A stretch of 37,693 nt of DNA from an uncultured Pelagibacteraceae bacterium. GTDB lineage: Bacteria > Pseudomonadota > Alphaproteobacteria > Pelagibacterales > Pelagibacteraceae. The DNA lies in NCBI GenBank assembly GCA_902576045.1, contig CACGTU010000010.1:1-37693 (forward strand). Direction: 5' to 3'. A program made the translations under genes and the position numbers. The notes beneath the pieces were generated by a model. That model was not told where the DNA came from and made no database searches. It saw nothing but the letters and a program-made list of their open reading frames with translations. This document shows positions 3,836-37,693 of the stretch, piece by piece; position 1 is the first letter of the stretch; the number at the start of each line of letters is the position of its first letter.

Positions 3836-4288
3836 TTATTCTACTCGTGAATATTCTGACTTAACTCTACGTAAAGGTACGGAGGTTTCAACTGAAGAAA
3901 CACCATCTATTACAGTAAGTTTTTTTGTTAAAAAATCCTCAAATTCCTCAACATCTTTAACCGCAATTCTAATTAAGTAATCCTTAGCACCTGTCATTAA
4001 CCAACATTCAACAACTTCAGGAAAATTTAAAATTTTTTTCTCAAATTTATCAAAATTTTTTGATTGTTGTTTTTCTAGGCTTATAAATATAAATGCAGGA
4101 AATTTGTAACCAAGTGAAGTTTCATCAATATTTATTGAATAATTTTTAATTATATTATTTTCTTCTAATTGGTTTATTCTTCTTGCGGTAGGAGCAATAC
4201 TTAAATTTATTTTCTCACTAATATTTTGAAGTGTAGTTTTGCTGTTATTTTTAAGTATTTTTACAATCTTTTTATCAAATTCATCCAT
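3836..4288 (-). CDS. Lrp/AsnC-family transcriptional regulator, 150 aa
   Basis: The N-terminal helix-turn-helix (about residues 1-55) begins DEFDKKIVKILKNNSKTT and includes ISEKINLSIAPTARRINQLE. The C-terminal RAM (ligand-sensing) domain spans about 65-150 and includes VECWLMTGAKDYLIRI. Length and layout are those of a feast/famine regulator, which binds DNA as dimers to octamers and senses an amino acid or related metabolite. It is divergent from a DapA-family aldolase gene across a 117-bp gap carrying inverted repeats, so it most likely controls that gene and itself. The effector is unknown; a substrate or product of the neighbouring aldolase is the natural guess. The family is secure, the target is inferred. 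Confidence 0.93.
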   Translation of the reverse strand: MDEFDKKIVKILKNNSKTTLQNISEKINLSIAPTARRINQLEENNIIKNYSINIDETSLGYKFPAFIFISLEKQQSKNFDKFEKKILNFPEVVECWLMTGAKDYLIRIAVKDVEEFEDFLTKKLTVIDGVSSVETSVPLRRVKSEYSRVE

Positions 4289-9708: not shown

Positions 9709-10293
9709 TTAAACTGACTTAAAGCCAAATTCTAAACAAGCATCAGTCAGTGAATGATGCAAAGATTCTCCAAAACTTCTTAAAGCTAGAACTCTAATAA
9801 CCTGAGGATTATCAGATATAAAATCTAATGTTATAGTTATTGCGTGGAAAACTGAATTAGAACAGTCCCCCTCTCCTAATTCATTAATGTTTAATGGGGA
9901 TCCTTTTTTAATTACCTCTCTTGCAAGATTGCCTTCTACCTCAATTATAGTTCTTGAATGAGAAAGATCAGTAATTGCAAAATCTTTATCAGTAAAATCA
10001 TTTTTAAAGGTATCAAAAATATTTTTTTTATCTGATATAACTAGCCAATTATCTGGTCCCATCCACAATATTCTTGTACTAGAGTTATGTTTTACTTTTA
10101 ATGGATCAGGTAATCTTAAACCATCTAAGTTCATTTTTGAAACATCAGCTGTGGAATTTTTATACTTAACAATTTGATAAATTATTAAATTTTTAACTTC
10201 TTTTAATTTAAGCAACTCATTTTCATTTTTATTTTCATAATCACCAAATGTTCCATGTTTATGAATATTTTGTAATGATGAAATGTATGTCAT
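9709..10293 (-). CDS. soxG: Sarcosine oxidase gamma subunit
   Basis: A 194-aa protein of the SoxG family, a small relative of the GcvT/YgfZ fold that packs on the alpha subunit in heterotetrameric sarcosine oxidase. Family-like segments include STRILWMGPDNWLVIS and ITDLSHSRTIIEVEG. Its ATG overlaps the soxA stop by 4 bp (ATGA at 10290-10293). It is the last gene of a soxB-soxD-soxA-soxG operon on the minus strand. The N-methylglutamate dehydrogenase complex has homologous subunits; operon context rather than this subunit must decide between the two. Confidence 0.9.
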   Translation of the reverse strand: MTYISSLQNIHKHGTFGDYENKNENELLKLKEVKNLIIYQIVKYKNSTADVSKMNLDGLRLPDPLKVKHNSSTRILWMGPDNWLVISDKKNIFDTFKNDFTDKDFAITDLSHSRTIIEVEGNLAREVIKKGSPLNINELGEGDCSNSVFHAITITLDFISDNPQVIRVLALRSFGESLHHSLTDACLEFGFKSV

Positions 10294-13286
10294 GATCGAA
10301 CTCTTTTTCCTTCTGGATCAACATAATGAGATGAAATTATTTCAACCTCTATTGAAGTATTTTTAAGAGGCGAAACTGCAAATAATTTTTTTCCAATCAT
10401 ATTCTTTCCATCATTTACGATTGCAAGAGAAAATGGATTATTATTTTCTACACTCCAGCAAGATGATGAGACATGACCTAGTTTAGGATTTGGAAGTTTT
10501 GCCTTTTCATTTTCAACTAAATGGGATCCCTCTGGTATACTGGACTTTCTATCTGTTGGTACTAATCCAACTATTTTTTGCCTATTTTCTAATGTGAATG
10601 CCTCTTTATCTAAAGAATTTTTTCCAATGAAATCTTTTTTCTTTGAAACTAATCCATCTAATGAAACATCTTGTGGAATTGTTCTTCCATCTAATTCTGG
10701 GCCGGCAACGTGCCCCATTTCAATTCTTAAAGTTGAAAGGGCTTCAGTTCCATATGGTTGATTGTTAAATTCTTGACCAATTTCCATCATTTTTTCCCAC
10801 ATGAACAAACCATAATTTGACTCAACATTAACCTCGTAAGCAAGCTCGCCTGAAAATGAAATTCTAAAAATTCTTGCTGGCACACCAAATAAATTACTTT
10901 CGATATAACCCATAAAAGGTAAAGCTTCATTGGAAACATCTAAATCTGGAAATAATTTGGATAACATATCTCTTGATTTAGGACCAGCTATTGCTGCGCC
11001 TGCCCATTGTTCTGTTGTAGATACAACATTTACATTTAATTCTGGCCATACAATTTGAAGATAATATTCGAGATGAGATAATACATTTGCGGCTTGTGCT
11101 GTTGTCGTAGTCATATGATAATGATTTTCAGAAATCCTTGTTGTAGTACCATCGTCCATTATCATGCCATCTTCTCTCAACATCACTCCATATCTTGCCT
11201 TACCAACTGGGAGTTTTAACCAAGCATTTGTGTACACCCTATTTAAAAATTCAGCTGCATCTGGGCCTTTAATATCTATTTTTCCAAGTGTAGTTACATC
11301 ACATATTCCAACATTCTCTCTTACATTTTTTGCTTCACGCTTTGAAGCCTCTAACAAAGTTTCATTTCCTTGTTTGTAATATCTAGGTCTTTTCCATGCA
11401 CCTGCATCAACAAACACTGCATTATTTTTTTCATGCCACTCGTGCATTGGTGTTTTTCTAGTTGGCATAAATTCCATACCCACTTCTCTTCCAACAATTG
11501 TACCAATAGTAATTGGAGTAAATGGTGGTCTAAAAGTTGTGTGCCCTACTTCGGGTACAATTTTATTTTCGATATTAGAGACCATTTGAAGACCATTAAG
11601 GTTACTTGTTCTTCCTTGATCCGTAGCCATACCTAATGTTGTATACCTTTTTACATGCTCGATGGACCTATAACCTTCTCTTAAAGCTATCTCTATATCA
11701 GAAACTGCAACGTCATTTTGAAAATCTACAAATCTTTTTGGGTTTTCATTTTTAGGAAGTGGCATACACCAAAATTTGTCATGCACACTGAATTTAGTTT
11801 CGGTTACTGTAGGTATTTTGTTCTCATTATTTTTATCAGTTATTTTGCTTGATAATTCTGAACCAGTTTTAAACCCACTTTCAATAGTTTCTTGAAGAGT
11901 AAAACTTCCATTTGCAGCACCTATTGTTTTTTCATTTTGTTTAGATTTATCTGGAATAAAAGCATCTATTTTTTCATCAAATTTTAATTTATTTCCAGAT
12001 TGCGATGCCAAATGAACAGTTGGCGTCCAAAAACCTGAAACACATATACAATCACAATTAATTGTTTCGGTACTTTCAAAAGATTTTTTATCTTTAGTCA
12101 ATTTACCTATTTTTGCTGATTTTACTTTTTTGTATCCATTTGCAACAATTACACCGTAAGAAAATTTTATTTGAATACCTTTATTTTTTGCTTCTTGTAC
12201 AACCTCAGAGTCGTGCTCTTCTCTTGTATCTAATATTATTGGTTCAACGTTATTTTTCTTAAATTCAAAAGCAGTTTCATAAGCACTATCGTTATTGGTA
12301 AATATAATTGGTTTTCTTCCAACTAAAACGCCATATACTTTCATATATTCTTTAGCTGCTGATGATAAAACTACGCCAGGTGTATCATTGTTTCCAAAAA
12401 CAATTGGTCGTTCTATTGATCCTGTTGATAAAATAGTCTCTTTAGCTCTAATATACCAAAGTCTTTGTCTTGGAGTATATTTTGATTTATTTGATAAGTG
12501 GTCGCCTACTCTTTCAAACATAACCATCATATTATGATCGTAATAACCAAATACTTGAGATCTATTTTTTAATGTCACGTTTGGCATTGTTTTTAGCTCA
12601 GATATGATTTTTTCAGACCAGTCTTTTCCGGACATATTGTCTATACTAACGTCATCGGTTAATAAGGTTCCGCCATATCTCGGTTTATCTTCAGCAAGAA
12701 TTACTTTTGCTCCATTTTTTGCTGCAGCATAAGCACTTGCTAACCCGGAGGGTCCTGAGCCAGTTACTAATAGATCGCAATATTCAAATTTATGTTCATA
12801 TCGTTCTTTATCTTTTTCTAAAGAAGCAACACCTAATCCAGCTGCTTTACGAATAAATGGTTCATAAACTTTATACCAAAAACTTTTTGGCCACATAAAT
12901 GTTTTATAATAAAACCCTGCTGGGAAAAATCTTTTTAGAAAATTGTTTATCGCTCCAATGTCAAATTCAACTGATGGCCAACAATTTTGGCTAGTTGCCG
13001 ACAATCCCTCTACTAATTCAATTTCGGTTGCATTTATGTTTGGTTCTGAATGTCCATTGATTGTAACTTGAAGTTTGGCATTTGGTTCATCAACTCCTGC
13101 TCCAATAAAACCTCTTGGTCTATGATATTTAAAACTTCTTCCTACTAAGTGAACTCCATTTGCAAGTAATGCCGAAGCTAGAGTATCTCCCTCATAACCT
13201 TGATATGATTTTCCATTAAAGTTAAATGTAATTACTTTATCTCTATTTATGAGCCCAATATTATTTAACCTGTGTGATTGTCTCAT
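10290..13286 (-). CDS. soxA: Sarcosine oxidase alpha subunit
   Basis: The 998-aa length is normal for SoxA. Domain order: a 2Fe-2S-ferredoxin-like fold near 15-100 (GYEGDTLASALLANGVHLVG), a nucleotide-binding domain from about 165 (LLVTGSGPSGLASAYAAAKNG), and a C-terminal GcvT-like THF-binding half from about 600 (VGICDVTTLGKIDIKGPDAA; SFSGELAYEVNV). In the complex the amine is oxidised at the beta subunit FAD and the methyl carbon is transferred to THF in this subunit as 5,10-methylene-THF. It overlaps soxD and soxG by 4 bp each. Divergent fhs supports a C1 role. The alternative is the MgdC subunit of N-methylglutamate dehydrogenase. Confidence 0.93.
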   Translation of the reverse strand: MRQSHRLNNIGLINRDKVITFNFNGKSYQGYEGDTLASALLANGVHLVGRSFKYHRPRGFIGAGVDEPNAKLQVTINGHSEPNINATEIELVEGLSATSQNCWPSVEFDIGAINNFLKRFFPAGFYYKTFMWPKSFWYKVYEPFIRKAAGLGVASLEKDKERYEHKFEYCDLLVTGSGPSGLASAYAAAKNGAKVILAEDKPRYGGTLLTDDVSIDNMSGKDWSEKIISELKTMPNVTLKNRSQVFGYYDHNMMVMFERVGDHLSNKSKYTPRQRLWYIRAKETILSTGSIERPIVFGNNDTPGVVLSSAAKEYMKVYGVLVGRKPIIFTNNDSAYETAFEFKKNNVEPIILDTREEHDSEVVQEAKNKGIQIKFSYGVIVANGYKKVKSAKIGKLTKDKKSFESTETINCDCICVSGFWTPTVHLASQSGNKLKFDEKIDAFIPDKSKQNEKTIGAANGSFTLQETIESGFKTGSELSSKITDKNNENKIPTVTETKFSVHDKFWCMPLPKNENPKRFVDFQNDVAVSDIEIALREGYRSIEHVKRYTTLGMATDQGRTSNLNGLQMVSNIENKIVPEVGHTTFRPPFTPITIGTIVGREVGMEFMPTRKTPMHEWHEKNNAVFVDAGAWKRPRYYKQGNETLLEASKREAKNVRENVGICDVTTLGKIDIKGPDAAEFLNRVYTNAWLKLPVGKARYGVMLREDGMIMDDGTTTRISENHYHMTTTTAQAANVLSHLEYYLQIVWPELNVNVVSTTEQWAGAAIAGPKSRDMLSKLFPDLDVSNEALPFMGYIESNLFGVPARIFRISFSGELAYEVNVESNYGLFMWEKMMEIGQEFNNQPYGTEALSTLRIEMGHVAGPELDGRTIPQDVSLDGLVSKKKDFIGKNSLDKEAFTLENRQKIVGLVPTDRKSSIPEGSHLVENEKAKLPNPKLGHVSSSCWSVENNNPFSLAIVNDGKNMIGKKLFAVSPLKNTSIEVEIISSHYVDPEGKRVRS

Positions 13287-13552
13287 ACTATTTCTTCACT
13301 CATTTTAGCTGTTTTAAATATTTCATGCGTTGCAGTATCTCTTTGAACTTTAAACCATTGCCTACATCCTGAGATATGATGCCAAAGTTCAATGTGTTTT
13401 CCTCTTGGACTTTTTCTCATATAAACAAAATTATCCCATTCCTCTTTTGAAACTTCTCTGTTAATTTCTGGTCTCTTAACTGTTGCATCTCCACCATAAG
13501 CAAACTCTTTTTGCGCTCTTAATCCACAGAATGGACAATTAATATGTAGCAT
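13283..13552 (-). CDS. soxD: Sarcosine oxidase delta subunit (zinc-binding)
   Basis: An 89-aa protein with Cys6 and Cys9 (INCPFCG) and, later, His59 and Cys63 (WHHISGCRQWF). This Cys-x2-Cys ... His-x3-Cys set is the zinc site of known heterotetrameric sarcosine oxidase delta subunits, so the protein should be structurally intact. It lies between soxB (3-bp gap) and soxA (4-bp overlap). The start is the ATG at 13552, giving MLHINCPFCG, the typical N-terminus. Confidence 0.95.
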   Translation of the reverse strand: MLHINCPFCGLRAQKEFAYGGDATVKRPEINREVSKEEWDNFVYMRKSPRGKHIELWHHISGCRQWFKVQRDTATHEIFKTAKMSEEIV

Positions 13553-13555
13553 AAA

Positions 13556-14812
13556 TTATGAGATCCAAGTTTTAGTGCCTAAGCCTTTTTCGTCTAAAAG
13601 ATATCCATTTGAAAATCTATTTAATGTAAGATCAGCATTTAATTCATGAAGTCTATCTTGGGCAATAGTATGGGCAAAAGTCCATCCTGAAACAGGAGTT
13701 GATTTAAAACCACCATAACACCATCCACAATTTAAATATAATCCCTCAATATGTGTTTTGTCTATTATTGGTGAACCATCCATAGACATATCCATTATAC
13801 CACCCCATGTTCTAAGCATTTTAAGTCTACTTAAGAAAGGAAATAACGCTAACCCACCAGTTAAAACATGCTGAATAGTTGGCAGATTACCTCTTTGAGC
13901 ATAACTATTATAACCATCAAGATCTCCTCCCATAACCATTTCGCCTTTATCAGATTGACTTATGTAGAAATGTCCAGCTCCAAATGTAACAACTCCATCT
14001 AATACAGGTTTAACTGGTTCAGAAACACATGCTTGTAGTAAATGTGTTTCAATTGGCAGTGTCATATTTAATTTTTCTGCAAGAATATTTGTGCTTCCTG
14101 CAACACATAGGCCAACTTTCTTGGCTTTAATAACACCTTTAGAAGTTCTTACTCCTTTAATTTTTCCACCTTCAACATCAAATCCCTCTACTTCACAATG
14201 TTGTATAATATCAACGCCCATACTATCTGCTTGTCTTGCATATCCCCAAGCCACACCATCGTGTCTCGCAGTCCCAGCACTTGGCTGCATTAGTCCTCCA
14301 AAAATAGGAAATCTCACTTCATCTGAAAAATCTGCCATTGGAATTAATTTTTTAACTTCATCTCTATTTAAAAGCTTTGCATCAATTCCATTTAATCTCA
14401 TAGAATTTCCTCTTCTTGCATAAGCATTCATTTGTGCATCAGAGTGAGCTAAATTAATTATTCCTCTTGGAGAAAACATCACATTAAAATTTAGTTCCTG
14501 GCTAAGATTTCTCCATAAGTCCATACCAAATTCATTAAATCTTGCATTAGCATCATACATAAAGTTTGATCTAATTATTGTAGTGTTTCGACCAACATTT
14601 CCTCCGCCTATCCAACCTTTTTCAATTACTGCTACATTTGTAATTTTATGTTCTTTTGCAAGATAGTATGCCGTTGCCAGTCCATGTCCTCCACCACCAA
14701 TTATGACTACATCATATTCACTTTTTGGTGTTGGATCTTTCCAGGCAACTTCCCAGTTTTGATGATCTGAAAATGCGTTTTTAATTAAACTAAAAACAGA
14801 ATATTTTTGCAT
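13556..14812 (-). CDS. soxB: Sarcosine oxidase beta subunit (FAD/FMN flavoprotein)
   Basis: A 418-aa DAO-family flavoprotein. The dinucleotide-binding motif VVIIGGGGHGLATAYYL is at residues 35-51. TARHDGVAWGYARQ contains His184, at the position of the histidine that covalently carries FMN in heterotetrameric sarcosine oxidases. The C-terminal YLNCGWCYGGFKSTPVSG segment is also typical. It oxidises sarcosine to glycine. It is the first gene of the operon and is divergent from fhs across 150 bp that hold a 17-bp tandem repeat. The gene lacks a recognisable Shine-Dalgarno sequence. The homologous MgdA of N-methylglutamate dehydrogenase is the alternative, but no methylglutamate synthase genes adjoin. 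Confidence 0.94.
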   Translation of the reverse strand: MQKYSVFSLIKNAFSDHQNWEVAWKDPTPKSEYDVVIIGGGGHGLATAYYLAKEHKITNVAVIEKGWIGGGNVGRNTTIIRSNFMYDANARFNEFGMDLWRNLSQELNFNVMFSPRGIINLAHSDAQMNAYARRGNSMRLNGIDAKLLNRDEVKKLIPMADFSDEVRFPIFGGLMQPSAGTARHDGVAWGYARQADSMGVDIIQHCEVEGFDVEGGKIKGVRTSKGVIKAKKVGLCVAGSTNILAEKLNMTLPIETHLLQACVSEPVKPVLDGVVTFGAGHFYISQSDKGEMVMGGDLDGYNSYAQRGNLPTIQHVLTGGLALFPFLSRLKMLRTWGGIMDMSMDGSPIIDKTHIEGLYLNCGWCYGGFKSTPVSGWTFAHTIAQDRLHELNADLTLNRFSNGYLLDEKGLGTKTWIS

Positions 14813-14868
14813 GGTTGGATTTTACAGTAAGAAATTCATATTTTTCTTATTTTTTATATATATATTTT

Positions 14869-14909
14869 TTAGAAGTTTAAAAACCAAATAAATTAGAAGT
14901 TTAAAAACC
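14869..14909. promoter_or_regulatory. 17-bp perfect tandem direct repeat between soxB and fhs
   Basis: TTAGAAGTTTAAAAACC occurs at 14869-14885 and again at 14893-14909, a 24-bp period with a 7-bp A/T spacer. Both copies are identical, unlike the surrounding unstructured AT-rich sequence, and lie midway between the soxB start (14812) and the fhs start (14963). A direct repeat in a divergent C1-gene promoter is a good candidate for a regulator binding array controlling both operons. No regulator gene is adjacent. Confidence 0.6.
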
Positions 14910-14962: not shown

Positions 14963-16642
14963 ATGCCAAAAACTGATATCCAAATAGCCAGGGAAGCTAA
15001 AATGAAACCCATAGATGAAATTTTAGCTAAAATAAATGTACCTGATGAACCAAATGCTTTTAGTCCAATGGGAAGACATATCGCAAAAATAAATTTAGGG
15101 TATCTAGATCAGCTCAAAGATAAAAAAAATGGAAAATTAATTTTAGTAACTGCGATAACTCCCACTCCTGCTGGTGAGGGTAAAACGACAACTTCTGTAG
15201 GCTTAAGTGATGGATTGAATAAAATTGGAAAAAAATCAATTGTATGTCTGAGGGAACCAAGTCTTGGTCCTTCCTTTGGATTAAAAGGCGGTGCAGCTGG
15301 TGGAGGATATGCTCAAGTTGTGCCAATGGAACAAATTAATTTACATTTTACTGGTGATTTTCATGCAATTACCTCAGCTCATAATTTATTATCAGCTCTT
15401 ATTGATAACCATATTTATTGGGGAAATAAATTAAATATAGATGTGAGAAGAGTTTCTTGGAGAAGAATCATGGACATGAATGACAGATCTTTAAGATCAA
15501 TCATTGTTGATCTTGGGGGTGTAGCTAATGGGTATCCTCGTCAAGATAGTTTTGATATTACCGTTGCTTCAGAACTGATGGCAATATTCTGTTTAGCAAC
15601 AGATTTAAAAGATTTAGAAAAAAGAATTTCTAATATAACGATTGGGTATACAAGAGATAAAACGCCCATCTATGCTAAGGATTTAAATGCACATGGTCCG
15701 ATGACTGTGTTATTAAAAGAGGCAATTAGACCAAATGTAACTCAAACTTTAGAGAATAACCCAGCCATAATTCATGGTGGTCCTTTTGCTAATATTGCTC
15801 ATGGATGTAATTCTGTAATAGCCACAAAAGCTGGGTTAAAATTAGCAGACTATGTCGTTACTGAAGCTGGATTTGGCGCAGATCTTGGAGCAGAAAAGTT
15901 TTTAAATATAAAGTGTAGAAAATCTGGTATTAAACCTGATTGTGTAGTCATTGTTGCAACAATTAGAGCTCTTAAAATGCATGGTGGTATTACAAAAGAT
16001 GAATTAAAAAATGAAAATGTTAAAGCATTAAAAAAAGGATTGGTTAACCTTGAAAGACACATAAATAATACAAGAAAATTTGGCATACCAGTTACAATAG
16101 CAGTTAATCATTTTATTACAGATACAGAGAAAGAAATGAAAACATTGTTAGATTTCTGCAAAACTCAAGGTGTAAAAGCATCTAAATGCACACATTGGAG
16201 TAATGGAAGCGAAGGAACAAAAGAACTTGCAAATAATGTTGTAAAAATTTGTGAAGATAACCAAGATACATTTAAATATTTATACGAAGATAAATTATCT
16301 TTATTCAAAAAAATTGAGAAAATCGCTCAAGAAATTTATCACGCAAGTGAAGTAGTCGCTGATACAAAAGTTAGACAACAATTAAAAGAATTTGAAGAAA
16401 AAGGTTATGGTAATCTTCCTGTGTGTATCGCTAAAACTCAATATAGTTTTTCAACAGACCCAAATTTGAAAGGTGCACCAACAGGTCATGTGCTACCAGT
16501 TCGAGAAGTTCGTTTGTCATCTGGTGCTGAATTTGTTGTCGTTGTTTGTGGAGAAATAATGACAATGCCTGGATTGCCAAGAGTGCCAGCTGCAGATTCG
16601 ATTAAACTAAATGATGAAGGTGAGATTGAAGGACTGTTTTAA
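14963..16642 (+). CDS. fhs: Formate--tetrahydrofolate ligase
   Basis: The enzyme makes 10-formyl-THF from formate, ATP and THF. The 559-aa length fits. The P-loop [16 protein letters not shown] is near residue 70. Other family blocks are [49 protein letters not shown] and the C-terminal [11 protein letters not shown]. It is divergent from the sarcosine oxidase operon: formaldehyde-level and formate-level C1 units meet in the THF pool, so the pairing is metabolic as well as positional. In the reverse direction the enzyme can recover ATP from C1 oxidation, a role proposed for methyl-oxidising marine bacteria. It converges on the amidotransferase gene with a 10-bp gap. Confidence 0.98.
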
Positions 16643-26165: not shown

Positions 26166-27497
26166 ATGAAAAAAGTAGCAATTATTGGTGCAGGTCCTTG
26201 TGGCCTTTCAATGTTAAGAGCATTTGAACATTTAGAAAAGAAGGGTGAAAAAATTCCAGAAATAGTTTGTTTTGATAAACAAGAAGATTGGGGAGGTCTT
26301 TGGAATTATAGTTGGAGAACTGGTTCTGATCAATATGGAGACCCTGTTCCAAACAGTATGTATAGGTATTTATGGTCAAATGGACCAAAAGAATGTTTAG
26401 AGTTTGCTGATTACTCTTTTGATGAACATTTTGGAAAACCTATTCCATCTTTTCCACCAAGAGAAGTTTTACAAGATTATATAATTGGAAGAGTAAGTCA
26501 GGGTAATTTAAAAAGTAAAATTAAATTTAACACTAGAGTGTTAAATACATCATTTAAAAATGATAAATTTGAAGTAAGTTTTCAAGATAAGGTCAATGAT
26601 AAAATACAAACTGATGAGTTTGATTATGTTGTGGTATCAACTGGTCATTTTTCAGTTCCATTTATACCTGAATACAAAGGTATGAAATCATTTCCAGGAA
26701 GAATTATGCACTCGCATGATTTTAGAGATGCAGAAGAGTTCAGAGGAAAGAATGTTATTGTATTAGGCAGTAGTTACTCAGCTGAAGATGTTGCTTTACA
26801 ATGTAATAAGTATGGAGCTAAAAGTGTAACTATAGGCTACAGACATAACCCAATGGGATTTAAATGGCCTGAAGGAATGAAAGAAGTCTTTTATCTAGAT
26901 CGTCTTGAGGGAAAAAAAGCAATTTTTAAAGATGGTACGGAACAAGAAGCTGATGCTATAATTTTATGTACAGGATATCTTCACCATTTTCCTTTTTTAG
27001 AGGAAAGTCTTAAACTTAAAACTCACAACAGGCTTTATCCTCCAAAACTTTACAAAGGTGTTGTGTGGCAAGATAATCATAAACTTCTTTATCTTGGTAT
27101 GCAGGACCAGTTTCATACTTTTAATATGTTTGATTGCCAAGCATGGTATGCAAGAGATGTGATAATGGGTAAAATTAAAATGCCAAGTGACAGTGAAATC
27201 GATGATGATATTAAAAAATGGGTTGAGATGGAGGAAAAATTAGAAAATCCAGATCAAATGATCGATTTTCAAACAGAGTACACTAAAGAGCTTCATGAAA
27301 TGAGTGATTATCCACAAATTGATTTTGAGTTAATTAGAAAACATTTTAAAGAATGGGAGCACCATAAAGTTGAAGATATTTTAACTTATAGAAATAAATC
27401 ATTTTCATCGCCTGTTACAGGTTCTGTTGCACCAATTCATCATACACCTTGGGAAACGGCAATGGATGACTCTTTAAAAACTTTTTTAAATAAATAA
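26166..27497 (+). CDS. tmm: Trimethylamine monooxygenase (flavin-containing)
   Basis: A class B flavin monooxygenase that oxidises trimethylamine to TMAO with NADPH and O2. The FAD motif GAGPCG is at residues 8-13. The FMO signature FxGxxxHxxxF is met by FPGRIMHSHDF (about 177-187). The NADPH-binding motif is VIVLGSSYSAED, and ILCTGYLHHFPF corresponds to the later ATG-containing block. The 443-aa length and the WGGLWNYSW and YRYLWSNGPKE segments are typical of bacterial Tmm. A GGAG ribosome binding site lies about 10 bases before the ATG. It lies in a locus with TMAO transporter and demethylase genes, which strongly supports TMA as substrate; broader amine or sulfide N/S-oxygenation is possible. 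Confidence 0.94.
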   Translation: MKKVAIIGAGPCGLSMLRAFEHLEKKGEKIPEIVCFDKQEDWGGLWNYSWRTGSDQYGDPVPNSMYRYLWSNGPKECLEFADYSFDEHFGKPIPSFPPREVLQDYIIGRVSQGNLKSKIKFNTRVLNTSFKNDKFEVSFQDKVNDKIQTDEFDYVVVSTGHFSVPFIPEYKGMKSFPGRIMHSHDFRDAEEFRGKNVIVLGSSYSAEDVALQCNKYGAKSVTIGYRHNPMGFKWPEGMKEVFYLDRLEGKKAIFKDGTEQEADAIILCTGYLHHFPFLEESLKLKTHNRLYPPKLYKGVVWQDNHKLLYLGMQDQFHTFNMFDCQAWYARDVIMGKIKMPSDSEIDDDIKKWVEMEEKLENPDQMIDFQTEYTKELHEMSDYPQIDFELIRKHFKEWEHHKVEDILTYRNKSFSSPVTGSVAPIHHTPWETAMDDSLKTFLNK

Positions 27498-30949: not shown

Positions 30950-31495
30950 TTAAAAATTTTTAATGTAATAAACTCTTGTATCTATTCCTGTGCTTAAAAA
31001 GCTTAATGCCTCACCACTAACTGTGATACTTTCATCTACGCCTACATTATTTCCACTTACGGTATAACCTGCAAAACACTTATTTTTCTCTTTATCCCAT
31101 TTAACAAATGTTTCATCTATTTTGTTTCCATTAATTGTATAAATTTCGTGTGCTCTAAAATTCAAAAAATTTGCACCCATAATCGCACGTTGTGGAATTA
31201 ATTTTGTGGCATTACATACAGCTTCATATAACTCATCAGATAATTTAAAATGATCTGTGCCGTCAAATGTTACCAAAATACCGGATGGTAATTTTGATAT
31301 TAATGCGCTTAGTTTTTTTTCTTTTGCTATTCTCTCTTCCTCTAATTTCATTTTTTTAACTAATTCATCGCCTTGACCAAAGATAGTATTTAAAATGGAA
31401 AATGAGATAATAATAATAATTGTAATAAAAATAAGACCAATTAATTGCCTTAAAGATTCTGGTAATGATCTAAATTTATTAAAGTAAGTATTCAT
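30950..31495 (-). CDS. Unknown single-span membrane protein, about 181 aa
   Basis: The frame is open from ATG 31528, but that start overlaps the MORN gene; ATG 31495 (MNTYFNKFRSLPESLRQ) leaves a 5-bp gap and is preferred. One strong hydrophobic span (LIGLIFITIIIIISFSILN) is followed by a charged helix (KKMKLEEERIAKEKK) and a C-terminal domain of about 120 residues, probably periplasmic, with two cysteines (AVCNAT; NKCFAG) that could form a disulfide. I recognise no family. It sits with the MORN gene between tmoX and tmoV, which is unusual for a TMAO transporter operon. Confidence 0.7.
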   Translation of the reverse strand: MNTYFNKFRSLPESLRQLIGLIFITIIIIISFSILNTIFGQGDELVKKMKLEEERIAKEKKLSALISKLPSGILVTFDGTDHFKLSDELYEAVCNATKLIPQRAIMGANFLNFRAHEIYTINGNKIDETFVKWDKEKNKCFAGYTVSGNNVGVDESITVSGEALSFLSTGIDTRVYYIKNF

Positions 31496-31500
31496 TTTAA

Positions 31501-31878
31501 TTATTCTTGGAGTTTGCCATTTTCCCAAATACCTGATTTTTGTTTTCCGTCAGACCAAGTGAATGTTCCTTCGCCATTCATAAATCCATTTTTCCACTCA
31601 CCTTCATACGTTGAGCCATCAGGAAATGTTAAAACTCCTTGTCCACTCCACATACTATTTTTAAATTCACCTTTATAGATATATCCATTAGGCCAAGTCT
31701 CTGTTCCTTGACCCTGTTTTTTTGTTGCAACCCATTCTCCTTCATAAGTTGTTTTGTCTGTATAAATCCATTTACCAAAACCATTTTCACAATTTCCTTC
31801 TTTACACCCCGTACTTCGAGAAAAAACCGTGGAACTGATCAAAAAACTTAAAAAAACGAAAATAAAATATTTTTTCAT
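31501..31878 (-). CDS. Exported MORN-repeat protein, 125 aa
   Basis: The signal peptide covers about residues 1-20 (MKKYFIFVFLSFLISSTVFS). The mature protein is a run of MORN-type repeats of about 22-23 residues: TTYEGEWVATKKQGQGTETW, YIYKGEFKNSMWSGQGVLTF and STYEGEWKNGFMNGEGTFTW, plus a partial C-terminal copy. Two cysteines (GCKEGNCENG) precede the repeats. MORN repeats form a beta-sheet scaffold for protein or lipid contact. Placement directly behind the tmoX terminator and ahead of the unknown membrane gene suggests those two act as a unit at the envelope, not necessarily in TMAO uptake. Confidence 0.85.
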   Translation of the reverse strand: MKKYFIFVFLSFLISSTVFSRSTGCKEGNCENGFGKWIYTDKTTYEGEWVATKKQGQGTETWPNGYIYKGEFKNSMWSGQGVLTFPDGSTYEGEWKNGFMNGEGTFTWSDGKQKSGIWENGKLQE

Positions 31879-31958: not shown

Positions 31959-32906
31959 TTATTTAGTAAACGCTTGCCAAACACTCTTGTTATCAGCTAA
32001 CCACTTTTTAGCTGCATCTTCGTGAGTCATTTTATCAACGTCAACTAAAGCTGCCATTGCTCCAATTTGACTTGTAGAGAATGACAATTTTTTGAAAGCT
32101 GATGCTGCCTTTGGATGAGTTTTTGGAAAATCTTCATGTGCCGCTTTTTTCAAATAACCATCTGGCGATCCACATTTTCCATCTCCACCGTCCTCAGGTC
32201 TGCAACCTGCTGTGTATGGAGGGAAATCAATAAATGTAAAACCAGCACCATCAGTAAAGTTTGGTGTCCAGTTGAAGATTATTGTTCCTCTTCCTTCTTT
32301 TTCAGCTGCTGATAATTCAGCCCATAGTGCATCTGCGCTTCCAGCAAATTTTACCCACCATAGATCTCCTAATCCAAGAGCATCAACTCTTTGAGGAATT
32401 AAGTCACCATGCCAAGTTTGTGGACCTTCTAACATTCTTCCTTTTCCATCTGGTGAATCAGGAGTTGTGAAGTTTTTTGCACAATCTGGATTTTTTAAAG
32501 CTGTCCAATCTGGTAATCCTGGGCATAAACCTTTTTCTACAACCCAGTTTGGATATCCCATATCCTCAAGCGTTCTAGCTTCATGGTCACCCATATCTAT
32601 TAAACCACCTTTATCTAAAGCAGTTGTAAATGATTTACCAAATGCAGATTCCCAAACTTCATGTGAAATTGTTACATCACCAATTCTAATTGACTCGTAT
32701 ACTGCTTGTGAGTCTGCGTTAACGTATTTTACGTTGTTACCCATGCTTTCAAAAATACCACCAATAACATATGCCATAACAATTTGGCTTGACCAGTTAT
32801 GTGTTGGGATTACGATGGGTTTTTTACTATCTGCTGCATTAGATATACCTGCAAAGCTTACTACAGAGATAACTACTGCTGATAGTAGAGATATTAGTTT
32901 TCTCAT
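31959..32906 (-). CDS. tmoX: TMAO-binding periplasmic protein TmoX-like (OpuAC family)
   Basis: A 315-aa quaternary-amine binding protein. The signal peptide ends near SNAA (about residue 25). The mature part has the OpuAC layout with Trp residues suited to an aromatic cage (THNWSSQIVMAYVIG; ISHEVWESAFG; IIFNWTPNF). Cysteines at PGLPDWTALKNPDCAK and in the CRPEDGGDGKCGSPDG loop may form a disulfide or metal-binding loop. It has a strong ribosome binding site (AAAGGGGA, 32918-32911), a near-consensus promoter and its own terminator, indicating heavy expression. TMAO specificity is inferred from tmm and tdm; glycine betaine is the alternative. Confidence 0.9.
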   Translation of the reverse strand: MRKLISLLSAVVISVVSFAGISNAADSKKPIVIPTHNWSSQIVMAYVIGGIFESMGNNVKYVNADSQAVYESIRIGDVTISHEVWESAFGKSFTTALDKGGLIDMGDHEARTLEDMGYPNWVVEKGLCPGLPDWTALKNPDCAKNFTTPDSPDGKGRMLEGPQTWHGDLIPQRVDALGLGDLWWVKFAGSADALWAELSAAEKEGRGTIIFNWTPNFTDGAGFTFIDFPPYTAGCRPEDGGDGKCGSPDGYLKKAAHEDFPKTHPKAASAFKKLSFSTSQIGAMAALVDVDKMTHEDAAKKWLADNKSVWQAFTK

Positions 32907-32937
32907 TTGTTCCCCTTTCTTAATATTAAGTAACTAA

Positions 32938-32966
32938 AGTATCCTTAAATTAAGTGTTATAGTCAA
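32938..32966 (-). promoter_or_regulatory. Sigma70-type promoter of tmoX
   Basis: On the minus strand TTGACT (32966-32961) and GATACT (32943-32938) are separated by exactly 17 bp, matching 5/6 and 4/6 of the consensus -35 and -10 hexamers. Transcription would start near 32931, giving a leader of about 25 nt that contains the AAAGGGGA ribosome binding site. It is the best promoter match noticed in the window. Confidence 0.6.
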
Positions 32967-33051
32967 TACGAGTTAATTATATTAAATATATATAAATTTT
33001 ATGACTACTGTTATTATACTTTATAATTAATAATGGCGTGACAAATAGTTT

Positions 33052-35388
33052 ATGCAAACAAGTTTAAACATAAAAGAACCTGGCTTAAATGTATTTCCAC
33101 TTGGAGTTGAAAGATATGTAGTGAATGGTGGAGGACTAACTGGTGTCCAAATTCTTCCTGATGATGAAATTGAAATTATTAACGACGAAGGAAATCAAAT
33201 TTGCGAAATTACAGTTTTTAACAAAGATGGAAAATCTGAGTTAGGAATTTTAAGTTTAAATGAAAGTAAAAATAGTTCTGAAATCAAAAAAATTTTATTT
33301 AACAAAAACGAAACATCTTTACAGGCTCTCTATCAATTAAAAAAAAGAAACCTAGATTTAGAAAAATCTAAATCAGCAATTCTTTTTAATAAAGATACAG
33401 TTGCTAAAGAAACTATAAAATTAAAATCTAAAGACAAATGTTATTGCATAATTTCTGCACCAGGAAATGCAATGTTAGTACATGAACAAAACCCATCAAC
33501 TGATTTAACTGTTTTAGTTAAAAGAGCTGAAAAAAAGCAAGATAAAGAATTCTCGGTAATTCCTGATCCTGTATATGATCCATCTGGAGAAATAGATATT
33601 AAAAGAACAACTGCTGATGCTTATCAAGTTAAAGAAGGAGATTATATACAAATAATTACACCTACAGGAAGGCAGTGCTCAGACTTTATAGCTTTTGATA
33701 CTGCTAAATTAGATAAAGGACAAGAAAACGGTTTGGATTGGCAAACAACAAGAACTTTCATGGGTCATACTTTTCCTGGACCTGGTTTATTCTCAAAATT
33801 TTATGATGTTGATCATGAGCCTTTAATTGAAGTTGTAAGAGATACGGTTGGTATTCATGATACTTTCAATTTAGCTTGTACATCTAAATACTATGAAGAT
33901 GCTGGATATTTTGGGCACGCTAATTGTTCAGATAATCTAAATGAAAGTATGGAAAAATATGGTGTTCAAAAAAAAAGAGGTTGGCATGCAATAAACTTAT
34001 TTTTCAACACATCTGCAGGTGGTCAAAACTCTGTGTTGTCTGATGAGTCTTATGCAAGACCAGGTGACTATGTAATATTTAGAGCACTAAAAGATTTAAC
34101 TTGCGGAACAACAGCTTGTCCAAGTGATATCGATAGCTGTAATGGTTGGAATCCAACTGATATTTTTGTTAGAACTTATGACAAAAAAAAAGAATTCACA
34201 AAATCATTTGGTTTTAGAATGAAAACAGACTCTGAAAATAAACTTACAAGAAATACTGGTTTTTATGAAAGAACTTCAAAGTTAACTAGAAACTATGTTG
34301 ATGCAAGAGGTTTTTGGTTGCCAAATGATTACACAAAACATGGAGTAATAAACGAATACACTGCTTGTAGAGAAAAAGCAGTTGTTATTGATTTATCTTC
34401 TTTGAGAAAGTTTGAAATCATTGGACCTGATGCAGAAGAGTTAATGAATTATACATTAACACGTAATGTAAAAAAATTGTCAGTCGGTCAAATTGTTTAC
34501 TCTGCAATGTGTTATGAAAATGGAATGATGTTTGATGATGGAACCTTATTAAGATTAAGTGAAACAGGATTTAGATGGGTTTGTGGTGATGAGTACGCTG
34601 GAGAATGGTTAAAAGAACAAGCTAAGAAAAAAAATTACAAAGTAATAATTAAAAATTCTACAGATCAAATTAATAATATTTCATTGCAAGGACCAAACAG
34701 TAGAAAAATTTTGGAAAAATTTATTTTTACACCACCTACGCAACCAACTATTTCCGAACTTCAATGGTTCAGATTTACTATTTGTAGAGCAGATGATTTA
34801 AAAGGAATTCCATTAATTGTTTCTAGAACAGGTTACACTGGTGAACTTGGATTTGAGATTTGGTGTCATCCTGATCATGCACCAGAAGTTTGGGATAAAG
34901 TTATGGAAGCAGGTAAAGATGAAGGTTTAATTCCAGCAGGATTTGGTGCATTAGATTTACTTAGAATTGAAGCAGGTTTAATTTTATTTGGAAATGAATT
35001 TGATGGCCAGCAAGATCCTTTTGAAGCAGGAATAGGTTTTTCAGTACCACTAAAAACGAAAACAGATGATTTTATTGGTAAAGAAAACTTAATTAAAAGA
35101 AAAGAAAATCCTCAAAAAAAATTAGTTGGGCTTGAATTAATTGGTAAAGAAAAAGCAAATCACGGTGACTGTGTTCATATTGGAAGAGCGCAAGTAGGTA
35201 TCGTAACAAGCGCGTGTTTGTCTCCTACATTGAATAAAAATATTGCTTTGTGTAGAATTGATGTTGGTCATTCTGAAATAGGAACAGATGTTGAAGTTGG
35301 TAAAATTGATGGTCACCAAAAAAGAATTCCTGCTAAAATAGTTGGCTTTCCACACTTTGATCCGCAAAAAACTAGAGTTAGATCCTAG
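33052..35388 (+). CDS. tdm: Trimethylamine N-oxide demethylase (DUF1989 + GcvT-like)
   Basis: A 778-aa two-part enzyme converting TMAO to dimethylamine and formaldehyde. The N-terminal half ends in a DUF1989-type metal-binding domain (about residues 170-390) with likely ligands among Cys276, His289, Cys292, Cys351, Cys356 and Cys363 (motifs HDTFNLAC, GYFGHANCSDN, TCGTTACPSDIDSCNGWNP). The C-terminal half (about 410-778) is a GcvT/dimethylglycine-type THF-binding domain (VVIDLSSLRKFEIIGPDAEE; SRTGYTGELGFEIWCHPDH), which can capture the released carbon as methylene-THF. This fusion is characteristic of Tdm. It is divergent from tmoX, and the next gene starts on the base after its stop. No clear ribosome binding site is seen. 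Confidence 0.92.
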   Translation: MQTSLNIKEPGLNVFPLGVERYVVNGGGLTGVQILPDDEIEIINDEGNQICEITVFNKDGKSELGILSLNESKNSSEIKKILFNKNETSLQALYQLKKRNLDLEKSKSAILFNKDTVAKETIKLKSKDKCYCIISAPGNAMLVHEQNPSTDLTVLVKRAEKKQDKEFSVIPDPVYDPSGEIDIKRTTADAYQVKEGDYIQIITPTGRQCSDFIAFDTAKLDKGQENGLDWQTTRTFMGHTFPGPGLFSKFYDVDHEPLIEVVRDTVGIHDTFNLACTSKYYEDAGYFGHANCSDNLNESMEKYGVQKKRGWHAINLFFNTSAGGQNSVLSDESYARPGDYVIFRALKDLTCGTTACPSDIDSCNGWNPTDIFVRTYDKKKEFTKSFGFRMKTDSENKLTRNTGFYERTSKLTRNYVDARGFWLPNDYTKHGVINEYTACREKAVVIDLSSLRKFEIIGPDAEELMNYTLTRNVKKLSVGQIVYSAMCYENGMMFDDGTLLRLSETGFRWVCGDEYAGEWLKEQAKKKNYKVIIKNSTDQINNISLQGPNSRKILEKFIFTPPTQPTISELQWFRFTICRADDLKGIPLIVSRTGYTGELGFEIWCHPDHAPEVWDKVMEAGKDEGLIPAGFGALDLLRIEAGLILFGNEFDGQQDPFEAGIGFSVPLKTKTDDFIGKENLIKRKENPQKKLVGLELIGKEKANHGDCVHIGRAQVGIVTSACLSPTLNKNIALCRIDVGHSEIGTDVEVGKIDGHQKRIPAKIVGFPHFDPQKTRVRS

Positions 35389-35739
35389 ATGTCAAAAGCT
35401 ACAAAAGACTTATTAGAATTCTGGGAAGATCAATTAAAATTATCGCATACATCATCAAACTATTTTTTTAGAAAATCACCTTCTCATTATCATATGATGT
35501 TGCTAGTAATGACTGCTTACAAACTTAATCAAAACCTTTCCGTTGAAGAACTTAAGACAAAGTTATTTAAAACATCTAGACCAAAATCAGCACTTATAAT
35601 TACCGAGGCATGTGAAAAAGGTTTTTTCTATCTTGAAAAAACATCGAAAGATCAAAGAAAAAAACACATAAAACCAAGCCAATCTTTTATTAGTGAATTC
35701 AACGATTATTTAAGAACCCTTAAAAATTTAAGCTTCTAA
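35389..35739 (+). CDS. Small winged-helix-like protein (MarR-like), 116 aa
   Basis: It starts immediately after the tdm stop (TAGATG), so it is translationally coupled to tdm. The product has a helical N-terminus (LLEFWEDQLKLSHTSSNYFF) and a later segment SRPKSALIITEACEKGFFYLEKTSKDQRKKHIKPS. This follows the recognition-helix and beta-wing pattern of MarR-type domains (helix, glycine turn, D-x-R in the wing). At 116 aa it is short for a full MarR dimer. A regulator of the methylamine genes is a reasonable hypothesis. The family assignment is by pattern only. Confidence 0.7.
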   Translation: MSKATKDLLEFWEDQLKLSHTSSNYFFRKSPSHYHMMLLVMTAYKLNQNLSVEELKTKLFKTSRPKSALIITEACEKGFFYLEKTSKDQRKKHIKPSQSFISEFNDYLRTLKNLSF

Positions 35740-35844
35740 GCCCTTATTAGATAATACTTTGAAGTTGTATTACTTAATTTATTTATAAAAATTAGATATA
35801 AAAAAAATTATATATTTCCCCTATGCAAAAAATAGAGTTCACTT

Positions 35845-37170
35845 ATGTCATTACCGACAAAAGCAAAAGTAGTAATAATTGGTGGAGGTATCCACGGTTT
35901 AAGTACTGCTTGGAAATTATCAGAGACATATAAAAATCCAGGGGACGTTGTTGTTTTAGAAAAAAAAGATACAGCTGCAGGTGCGAGTGGTATTGCTTGC
36001 GGAGTTGTAAGAAACAACTATTTCCAACCTGCAATGAGAGAATTAATGGCCCATTCTGTTTCAGTTTGGGAAAGTGATCCAAAAGCATTTAAATATAATC
36101 CAGTTGGCTACATGCAGATTTCACCAGAAGTAATGCACGAAGATGTAAGAAGTATTTATGAGCAACAAAAAGCTATTGGTTATGAATCTGTGTTCATCGA
36201 AGGTGAAAAAGATTGTATGAATTACATGAAGGGAATTTTTGATGATTGGCAAGCTCAAGGAATAACTTCTGTTCTTCATGAGAAAAAAGGTGGATACGCA
36301 TTTAACAAAGATTCGATTAAAGCTTTAGAGAGCAAAGCTAACAACAATGGAGTTCATGTCCATAAAGGTGTTAAGGTAACAGGATTTAAAAGAGGAAGTA
36401 ACAGTAATGCAGTTACAGGAGTTGTAACTGATCAAGGAACTATTGATTGTGATCAGGTTGTAGTTGGTGCAGGTCCATGGGTAAGAGACTTTTGGAACAT
36501 GTTAGAGCTTCCAAAGACAACTGAGATTAAAGGTAAAGATGGAAAATCACATGAAGTTGAAATGTGGAAATATTGGTTTTTACAAGAAGGTGTGCTTGGA
36601 GTTGATGCAGATTATTTAAAAACTAATGAAGGTAAACAACCACCTGTAATTCATGTTGATACAGATGCACCATTGCATTCGGATGCAACAGGTAAATTAA
36701 TTACAGATGAACTATGGGGAATTTATTATAAACCTGATATCGAGGGTTTAGGTGTTCAAGGCGGAACTTCACCATACATTGTACAAAAACATTTTGACCA
36801 AGTAAATGTTGATCCATATGGAATAGAATCTCCAGAATTTCAAACAACAGATAAGTTTGCAGATATGTGGACGTCAGCTCTTGCTCACATTCAAAAAAGA
36901 TTTGTAGGGAAATCAAATTTATATAGAAAAGGACCATCAGGTGGTCTTGGATGTTTAACGCCAGACAGTTTTCCAATCTTCGATAGATTTTTTGAAAACG
37001 TTTACATGATTGCAGATGCCAATCATGGTTATAAAATGATTGGGGTTGGACACTTGGTTGCTCAAGAAATTTTAGGTCAAGAGAGTGATTTGTTAAAACC
37101 GTTCAGATTCAATCGATACGCGAAAGGTGAATTGCACCCCACTTCGAACAGTCCGTTTCCTTGGAGCTAA
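35845..37170 (+). CDS. DAO-family FAD-dependent amine oxidoreductase, 441 aa
   Basis: The FAD-binding motif VVIIGGGIHGLSTAWKL is at residues 9-25. It has the glycine/sarcosine oxidase (DAO) fold order, with AAGASGIACGVVRNNYFQPA for flavin contact and YMIADANHGYKMIGVGHLVA at the C-terminus. It is related to SoxB and to the flavin subunits of dimethylglycine and N-methylglutamate dehydrogenases but lacks SoxB's RHDGVAWG FMN-histidine motif. It follows tdm and a winged-helix gene and precedes a glutamine synthetase-family gene. Oxidation of dimethylamine, a gamma-glutamyl-methylamine product or N-methylglutamate is likely. The precise substrate cannot be read from the sequence. Confidence 0.85.
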   Translation: MSLPTKAKVVIIGGGIHGLSTAWKLSETYKNPGDVVVLEKKDTAAGASGIACGVVRNNYFQPAMRELMAHSVSVWESDPKAFKYNPVGYMQISPEVMHEDVRSIYEQQKAIGYESVFIEGEKDCMNYMKGIFDDWQAQGITSVLHEKKGGYAFNKDSIKALESKANNNGVHVHKGVKVTGFKRGSNSNAVTGVVTDQGTIDCDQVVVGAGPWVRDFWNMLELPKTTEIKGKDGKSHEVEMWKYWFLQEGVLGVDADYLKTNEGKQPPVIHVDTDAPLHSDATGKLITDELWGIYYKPDIEGLGVQGGTSPYIVQKHFDQVNVDPYGIESPEFQTTDKFADMWTSALAHIQKRFVGKSNLYRKGPSGGLGCLTPDSFPIFDRFFENVYMIADANHGYKMIGVGHLVAQEILGQESDLLKPFRFNRYAKGELHPTSNSPFPWS

Positions 37171-37238: not shown

Positions 37239-37693
37239 ATGACTGATCTAGAAAAACATGTAAATCAACCAGGTAGAGCTAAACTTGTAAAAAAAGTTAG
37301 AGAAAAAATTAACGAGTTAGGAATAACATATATTTATTTTCAGTTTATTTCTGTGACAGGAAGAGTTGTTGGTAAAGGTATACCAGCAGACCATTGGGAA
37401 AGAACTGCAGAAAAAGGTTTTCAATTAGTTTACGGTGCAACTGCAAACTTATTTTTAGATCGTCACAATAATTATATCGGTTATGGACCGGAAGCTATGG
37501 AATTAGTTGGAATTCCTGACCCTGAAACTTTTGTTCAGTTACCTTGGGACAAAAGAGTTGGAAGAGTTTTTTGTACATGTTTTAGAAATAGAGAAGAAAG
37601 AAAAAATCCAGGAGGTCATTTAACTTCTGACTGCAGAGGAAATTTAAGAATTTTCATGGATGAATTTAAGAAAAAACATGGTCTTGAATTAAG
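37239..37693 (+). CDS. Glutamine synthetase-family protein, possibly GmaS, 3' end cut off
   Basis: The first 151 codons are present; the gene continues past the window. The start is fixed by a strong ribosome binding site (AAAGGGGG, 37228-37235) just before ATG 37239. The N-terminus (INELGITYIYFQFISVTGRV, then GKGIPADHW) has the pattern of the glutamine synthetase N-terminal beta-grasp domain, where a small ligase discriminates its amine. The protein then continues GPEAMELVGIPDPETFVQLP. The context (tdm, DAO flavoenzyme) suggests gamma-glutamylmethylamide synthetase or a paralogue acting on another amine. The catalytic domain lies outside the window, so activity cannot be checked and no symbol is assigned. 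Confidence 0.75.
   Translation, partial: MTDLEKHVNQPGRAKLVKKVREKINELGITYIYFQFISVTGRVVGKGIPADHWERTAEKGFQLVYGATANLFLDRHNNYIGYGPEAMELVGIPDPETFVQLPWDKRVGRVFCTCFRNREERKNPGGHLTSDCRGNLRIFMDEFKKKHGLEL

Follow-up and report, generated by a model that had tools for sequence, protein, structure and literature searches.

Organization of the TMAO locus

The whole stretch of DNA analysed here (the window, 37,693 nucleotides from an uncultured Pelagibacteraceae bacterium) carries a trimethylamine N-oxide (TMAO) locus, in which the gene of a small protein, termed WH in the following, is placed between tdm and an mgdA-like gene with gmaS behind it (Table 1). As tdm ends at 35388 and WH begins at 35389, on the very next base (...TCC TAG ATG TCA...), stop and start abut, in agreement with the TAGATG coupling described in the sequence-only reading of the window. 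The mgdA-like gene occupies the position of SAR11_1304 ('monomeric sarcosine oxidase') and is the first gene of the presumed target operon discussed below. Because no dmmDABC homolog was found in HTCC1062, according to the part of that account used here (PMC8918994), the mgdA-like gene is a candidate to supply the missing dimethylamine-oxidising step. The 151-residue gmaS fragment gave no NCBIfam match. SAR11_1304 adjoins SAR11_1303, a gcvT-like gene in the tdm position (PMC3160333, in part). In the relative G086 an intact WH lies between the tdm-position gene and the mgdA-like gene, and a WH between SAR11_1303 and SAR11_1304 seems to have been left without a tag.

At a second place the window carries soxBDAG and the divergent fhs. 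Of 28 chosen genomes 24 contain this soxBDAG-fhs copy, whereas the four others, three of which lack tdm, show only a paralog of 57–59% identity. The soxB of this copy (E≤1e-190) is absent from 29 of the 32 genomes of at least 90% completeness that have neither WH nor Tdm. The rarity of the copy without tdm/WH therefore points to it, rather than to the paralog, as the putative N-methylglutamate dehydrogenase. Two further observations concern the surroundings: the genes of a MORN-repeat-like secreted protein and of a 192-residue membrane-anchored protein (30950–31878) are retained in most of the examined loci between tmoX and tmoW, and the window contains an AsnC/Lrp-like regulator gene (3836–4288) whose family matches stay below the cut-offs.

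Table 1. Positions of genes, predicted elements and candidate sites in the window, and of related genes at other loci (L numbers).
Feature	Position	Strand	Basis
soxBDAG, candidate N-methylglutamate dehydrogenase operon	9709..14812	-	soxB: TIGR01373, 664 bits, cut-off 529
Candidate C1-box between soxBDAG and fhs	14850..14876	-	best window site of mcl (first) matrix, 11.6 at 14853
fhs, formate-tetrahydrofolate ligase	14963..16642	+	NF010030, 913 bits, cut-off 652
tmm	26166-27497		ORF list
tmoV/W	between tmm and tmoX in ORF list		names from synteny and literature
tmoX, TMAO-binding protein gene, divergent from tdm	31959..32906	-	ORF list; name from synteny and literature
Dyad CTTAATATTAAG in tmoX leader, just upstream of tmoX ribosome-binding site	32919..32930	.	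exact in 72/96 WH loci
tdm, trimethylamine N-oxide demethylase	33052..35388	+	NCBIfam NF053776, 1117.1 bits, cut-off 1100
tdm stop / WH start junction TAGATG	35386..35391	+	sequence; conserved coupling
WH, 116-residue MarR-type winged-helix protein	35389..35739	+	ORF list, homologs, predicted fold, family profile against PDB
Predicted WH recognition helix, residues 64-76, RPKSALIITEACE	35578..35616	+	DSSP of model
Predicted WH wing, residues 80-96, with D88-x-R90	35626..35676	+	DSSP of model
Candidate C1-box, WH-mgdA spacer	35781..35807	+	mcl (first) matrix p=0.005 (site 35776-35816); soxB-fhs (second) matrix 22.6, second window locus
mgdA-like, FAD-dependent sarcosine-oxidase-like gene	35845..37170	+	TIGR01373, 73 bits, below cut-off 529
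gmaS start (gamma-glutamylmethylamide synthetase), cut by window end	37239..37693	+	synteny and literature (PMC8918994, PMC3160333, both in part)
MarR-like paralogs at other loci	L040 6134-6550; L041 6508-6924; L042 6176-6583; L043 3496-3897; L044 5986-6348; L045 5376-5711		
Loci with serine-cycle-type genes in or beside the TMAO locus	L133, L134, L141, L142, L147, L154, L155, L157		

Fold and family of WH

The predicted structure of WH (AlphaFold, 24 close sequences; mean pLDDT 78.4, pTM 0.69) is composed, according to DSSP, of helices 3–19, 25–28, 31–45, 52–59 and 64–76, strands 80–84 and 92–96 and a terminal helix 98–112, and as a model displays the MarR winged-helix topology α1-α2-α3-α4-wing-α5. 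Foldseek yielded 46 matches with E≤0.001, and the 50 rows listed are all of the MarR or Sar type, headed by PefR (E 9.4e-5); TM-scores normalised on the WH query range from 0.49 to 0.66 and identities from 8 to 23% among the matches listed. With VIA-align the best row is MepR (Z 12.2, rmsd 2.9, 109 aligned residues) and the listed rows are nearly all MarR family members, the lower ones including a Wadjet subunit and AF1382. A profile of 24 WH relatives searched against the PDB likewise found PefR (7dvs, E 9.7e-5) and, over nearly the whole length, SarX (6k8e, E 0.0032). The window WH alone matched no Pfam or NCBIfam family above the cut-off, and Pfam MarR_2 matches 6 of the 24 relatives weakly (best E 0.012). 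The Pfam hits SH2_1 (E 0.035) and DUF6554 (E 0.05), far below the cut-off, were rejected as its family, as was the sole match of a single-sequence PDB search, a nucleosidase (E 0.33).

WH stops after helix 5, so that helix 6, which completes the MarR dimerisation domain, is absent; most VIA-align alignments end near residues 113–122 of the MarR chains. Sar-type MarR members are likewise not known to possess a C-terminal helix 6. At the predicted recognition helix Arg64, Pro65 and Lys66 are invariant in 18 orthologs, and in the predicted wing Asp88 and Arg90 are invariant across all 24 aligned orthologs and paralogs; we take D88-x-R90 to be the MarR wing signature. The model, Foldseek and VIA-align all support the winged helix that had been supposed from the sequence, and the predicted structure speaks for a short MarR-family protein in which the last dimerisation helix is missing. 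MepR, PefR and other MarR repressors have the fold in common with WH, but their listed chains mostly comprise 133–147 residues and include helix 6. SarX and the single-domain Sar proteins of Staphylococcus, with chains of 121–128 residues, are closer in size, but are Firmicutes regulators without targets in common with WH. Small MarR-like paralogs of 24–29% identity to WH are encoded beside other metabolic genes in related genomes; no Pfam model was found that covers these paralogs as a group.

Conservation and gene neighbours

Within a set of 61 genomes, WH orthologs of 73–100% identity occur in 17 (the own genome included), all belonging to the window's genus and all having the gene directly 3' of tdm, and orthologs of 58–60% identity occur in 14 further ones. 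In GTDB contigs 529 of 546 pattern matches encode WH relatives, the best 80 of which constitute the set of named loci. Pairwise comparisons (NG86) gave dN of 0.09–0.20, with dS of 1.6–2.5 in three and saturated (not computable) in three others. The ORF is a real, conserved gene of Pelagibacteraceae. Among the named loci (best 80 of 529), the 5' neighbour is tdm in 79, the 80th being cut by the contig end, and the 3' neighbour is the mgdA-like gene in 79, the remaining one lying at a contig end. Stop of tdm and start of WH share one base in 69 loci, directly adjoin in 6 and are separated by 3–10 bases in 4. From this coupling, WH would be expected to be produced in proportion to Tdm.

In some Pelagibacteraceae malyl-CoA lyase-like (mcl), malate-CoA ligase (mtkA, mtkB) and PEP carboxylase (ppc) genes, of the serine-cycle type, are located in or beside the TMAO locus. 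WH is found directly before the mgdA-like gene in G077 and between this gene and mcl-mtkA-mtkB-ppc in G133, tdm being absent in both; it precedes mcl-mtkA-mtkB-ppc in G066 and G181, faces ppc in G163 and G142 and faces mtkB in G095, G228 and G164. The G133 genes reach the NCBIfam cut-offs for MtkA (638 bits, cut-off 604) and PPC (923 bits, cut-off 815), for MtkB the matching models are those of succinate-CoA ligase alpha, and the lyase remains below the cut-offs of its nearest models; mcl/mtk/ppc genes at other loci were named by similarity to those of G133. Of 26 genomes examined 7 contain mcl, which outside the window's genus is present in all 4 WH-bearing and in none of 15 WH-less genomes. 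It is missing in the WH genomes G086, G012, G063 and G077, and therefore serine-cycle-type genes were rejected as a constant partner of WH. The window's own genome has mcl-mtkA-mtkB elsewhere (L174, G000:C35). A study of three SAR11 strains from 2011 predicted no net C1 assimilation (PMC3160333, in the part used here).

A box shared by methylamine and one-carbon promoters

A rare AT-rich sequence, here called the C1-box (best form CTAAAAAWTATATATAAAAA), is common to the promoters of the mgdA-like gene and of soxBDAG/fhs, and in relatives to those of malyl-CoA lyase/malate-CoA ligase genes. It was traced with two matrices, the first (41 bp) trained on four mcl promoters of other genera and the second (27 bp) only on soxB-fhs sites. 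Training sites were chosen by eye after viewing the loci; the tests on other promoters, genomes and left-out sites do not reuse them, the genomes being related to each other. Duplicate spacers, spacers under 40–45 or over 400–420 bases and loci without both tmoX and tdm starts were dropped.

The first matrix scores a median of 14.9 in 94 mgdA-like spacers of WH-bearing loci versus -16.2 in 157 other spacers of such loci. Compared with dinucleotide shuffles, 24 of 27 mgdA-like spacers reach p≤0.05, among them that of the window, and those of L035, L017 and L160 are not significant (28 loci were given; L149 has no mgdA-like spacer and several have no usable tmoX-tdm spacer). In 400 kb of G123 (798,400 windows) its maximum is 13.3, versus 19.5 at the mgdA-like promoter of this genome. 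For the soxB-fhs promoter p≤0.05 is reached in 11 of 14 WH-bearing loci of the genus (not in G248, G077 and G164) and in 0 of 7 loci without WH; of three WH-bearing loci from other genera (L214, -11.7; L216, -2.7, p=0.015; L220, -16.1) one does so, L219 (G080) having been left out as too short. For the G077 site the second matrix gives 14.9.

The second matrix, trained at soxB-fhs alone, reaches at least 12 in 85 of 91 distinct mgdA-like spacers, in 3 of 3 WH-mcl spacers and in 2 of 3 mcl/mgdA spacers, the background being 3 windows of at least 12 in 400 kb of G123. When G123 is left out of training, its soxB-fhs site scores 31.5, whereas the best background match in the 400 kb scores 17.1; the six highest background matches fall within coding sequences or at their borders. 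Omission of the window site from training leaves 14850–14876 (31.5) and 35781–35807 (23.0) as the two best loci of the window. The best candidate sites are thus located elsewhere than in the tmoX-tdm spacer (32907–33051), which the sequence-only reading had proposed as the target and which in the window contains no significant copy of the box. For tmm no site is among the best window sites of either matrix, and no C1-box is present at the mcl genes of the own genome.

Twelve exact matches, chosen by us from 24 listed, were fetched: 7 are located at soxB(-fhs), 1 falls within a coding sequence and 4 belong to mgdA-like promoters; of these four promoters three are divergent from a phosphoserine transaminase gene (one checked) and one from a class V aminotransferase gene. 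Shorter or looser forms were rejected. The pattern MTAAAWWWTATATATAAAAA with one mismatch gave genome-wide counts resembling those of the reversed control (judged by eye, not summed), so that only exact or matrix matches carry signal, and TTTTATATATAAAA gave 7 sites in 12 genomes, 3 of which belong to TMAO loci, versus 9 for the reversed control, and the longer box was used instead.

These data also bear on a different layout of control, in which WH would be a classical local MarR autoregulator that represses the tdm-WH message and tmoXWV from the tmoX-tdm spacer and is relieved by TMAO or DMA. Such a role would suit the divergent regulator-target arrangement and the induction of tmoX and tdm by TMAO (PMC8918994, in part), and the tmoX leader indeed contains the 12-bp dyad CTTAATATTAAG, which is exact in 72 of 96 WH loci and of whose three copies in the own genome this is the sole intergenic one. 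Moreover, the tmoX-tdm spacer of G123 holds the box (19.2), as does the similar one of G022 (L047, 19.2, contig ending in tdm). However, loci without WH hold other dyads at the same position, so that the dyad follows taxonomy and not WH, and CTTAATATTAAG was rejected as WH operator; 3 of the 11 rows counted as lacking WH (L047, L049, L131) are contigs ending inside tdm, and L047 is the single tmoX-tdm spacer counted as lacking WH that scores high with the second matrix. With the first matrix 2 of 20 tmoX-tdm spacers reach p≤0.05 (window p=0.73), and with the second 1 of 73 from WH-bearing loci attains at least 12. We consider local autoregulation of this kind rather unlikely. As a separate observation, most of the examined loci, whether or not they contain WH, have a dyad-symmetric element of varying sequence just ahead of the tmoX ribosome-binding site.

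Co-occurrence of the box with WH

Outside the window's genus the exact box was found in 4 of 5 WH genomes but in none of the 16 that have tdm without a close WH, and its absence from the latter ties the box to WH within the same genera. A 17th such tdm genome, G323, has one exact-box match, whose position is not among the matches listed. No box precedes the mgdA-like gene in ten loci where tdm has no WH beside it, the best site in any of them (12.4) lying inside a gene. The association is not a strict one, since boxes occur without a WH hit: the exact box is present in G340, G098, G071, G074 and G085, which also gave no profile match. The last four are drafts of 56–78% completeness. In G340 (90% complete) tdm, WH and the mgdA-like gene are absent, tmoX lies one gene from fhs and the soxB-fhs box is kept; the tdm-WH locus looks deleted or rearranged while the box remains. 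Together with G310 and G314, G340 makes up the three of 32 genomes (likewise chosen by us, at least 90% complete) without WH and Tdm that have soxB, and all three carry the box. The contig of G310 ends inside tmoV and that of G314 about 1 kb past tmm, both before tdm as judged by the gene order of G063.

One might therefore suppose that WH binds DNA and controls something else, the C1-box being the site of another factor or a special promoter signature. The seven genomes with box and without WH hit (G340, G310, G314, G098, G071, G074, G085), the placement of the box near the presumed -10 element (by eye) and the different neighbours of WH orthologs in another family of the order speak for this possibility; the AT-richness of the box would possibly also fit a promoter or nucleoid-protein signature, and its association with WH may reflect shared ancestry. 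On the other hand, six of the seven are either incomplete drafts or break off ahead of the expected tdm, and none of the 16 tdm genomes without close WH carries the exact box. On balance we regard another binder of the box as unlikely.

Linkage between WH and tdm

Among 297 genomes of the family WH is present in 88, Tdm in 101 and both in 83, and in 81 of the 83 WH lies directly 3' of tdm on the same strand. The two exceptions are G066, with the mgdA-like gene between tdm and WH, and G185, with the two genes on separate contigs. Within the window's genus, 79 of 80 Tdm-bearing genomes have WH, always adjacently; in the remaining one (G276) a contig end interrupts the locus. Besides G276, 17 genomes of other genera carry Tdm but no WH at E≤1e-15; in all nine of these 17 that were inspected tdm runs straight into the mgdA-like gene, and one of the 17 (G080) has a remote WH-like match (E 2.2e-10) some 7 kb away from tdm. 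Conversely, WH without Tdm occurs in G077 (one contig, 99% complete) and G133, and also in G004, G246 and G272, where the WH match reaches the contig end. The 14 genomes with WH orthologs of 58–60% identity belong to another family of the order; they contain no full-length Tdm, no tdm was found within the fetched stretches of 13 of their loci, and the orthologs follow, where examined, a sulfatase or metallo-hydrolase gene. No strong box is located near them; the best site (12.2) belongs to L032, where it overlaps the start of the preceding gene. The supposed linkage to tdm is thus strong within the genus (79/80) and fails elsewhere, that is in the 17 tdm genomes without close WH, in G077 and G133 and in the orthologs of the other family.

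Two deep Tdm alleles, of about 63% and about 80–90% identity to that of the window, swap within otherwise similar loci. The 63% allele occurs in 6 of 79 named loci (L087, L088, L105, L106, L120, L129), in which WH is 90–91% identical. Since the linkage is not obligatory, a pathway regulator is favoured over a partner of Tdm: the proposal that WH, with no regulatory function, might serve Tdm as a translationally coupled chaperone or non-DNA-binding partner would agree with the tight stop/start coupling and the adjacency in 81/83 genomes, but is highly improbable in view of WH without tdm in G077 and G133, the 17 tdm genomes of other genera without close WH, the nearly unchanged WH beside the 63% allele and the retained MarR wing and recognition helix.

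Discussion

On the basis of the computed fold, conservation, coupling and linkage of WH and of a box that is both shared and rare, we propose, with a probability of about 0.5, that WH is a short MarR transcription factor made from the tdm message and acting on an AT-rich box at the next steps of the pathway. WH as the binder of the box, the sign of control and an effector are what we infer from these data. WH would be translated from the tdm message and therefore be present whenever the TMAO demethylase is induced. In this scenario TMAO induces the tdm-WH message and WH is made; the protein then most likely acts as a dimer on the box in front of the mgdA-like gene with gmaS behind it, of soxBDAG with the divergent fhs and, in some relatives, of the malyl-CoA lyase/malate-CoA ligase genes. 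Thereby, the handling of dimethylamine, methylamine and one-carbon units would be adjusted to the entry of TMAO. The location of the box near the presumed -10 element (assigned by eye) would suit a repression relieved by a pathway intermediate, activation being equally open. Compared with the original interpretation, the winged helix and the tdm linkage within the genus have been supported, while the partnership with Tdm, the tmoX-tdm spacer as target and a linkage outside the genus have not.

Regulators of the corresponding Roseobacter pathway have been described in the meantime (PMC13390433, in part). The AraC-type TmaR (SPO1584) of Ruegeria pomeroyi DSS-3 is the master regulator of trimethylamine catabolism and binds the tdm, dmm, gmaS-mgs and mgd promoters, and the GntR-type TmoR (SPO1553) represses tmm with DMA and TMAO as effectors; in the portion of that paper used here SAR11 is mentioned solely in the introduction and references (PMC13390433). 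A search of the literature found neither a MarR-type regulator of the TMAO locus nor a named TMAO regulator of SAR11, so the earlier statement that no regulator of this type had been described has held. TmaR resembles WH in being encoded with methylamine genes, in targets that for WH are predicted likewise to include gmaS and an operon of the sox/mgd type, and in being present also where upstream genes are missing (PMC13390433, in part). C1-boxes are located at the gmaS-operon and mgd-type promoters, with WH as their presumed binder. TmaR differs in its AraC-type DNA-binding domain, the MarR fold of WH not being homologous, and in also activating tdm (PMC13390433, in part), whereas the window tdm is not preceded by a significant site. 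TmoR is likewise encoded within the TMAO gene cluster, but combines a GntR-type DNA-binding domain with an effector domain, whereas WH is a single MarR-type domain of 116 residues; its pathway target is tmm only (PMC13390433, in part), which is not among the best window sites of the box. By analogy, WH perhaps works like TmaR, not as a member of that family but as a short MarR protein.

SAR11 bacteria carry few regulators. They are among the most abundant cells of the sea, and HTCC1062 responds to TMAO with raised tmoX, tdm and gmaS, the regulator being unnamed in the consulted part of that account (PMC8918994) and in the literature found. A conserved regulator gene, together with DNA sites at two window promoters and at a third in relatives, turns this gap into a simple binding question. 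That one of the two sox operons co-occurs with tdm is also relevant to a question left from 2011, namely which of them is the N-methylglutamate dehydrogenase (PMC3160333, in part). More tentatively, and with slightly less than an even chance in our estimate, WH could be a minimal MarR protein, made from the TMAO demethylase message, that in this SAR11 genus acts as master regulator of both methylamine and one-carbon metabolism, reads out the activity of the pathway and replaces the AraC-type TmaR of Roseobacters. If so, its regulon would be defined by a dedicated box and would encompass the downstream demethylation operon, N-methylglutamate dehydrogenase, formate-THF ligase and, in some relatives, malyl-CoA lyase/malate-CoA ligase, and the same pathway would have been wired by unrelated regulator families in Roseobacters and SAR11.
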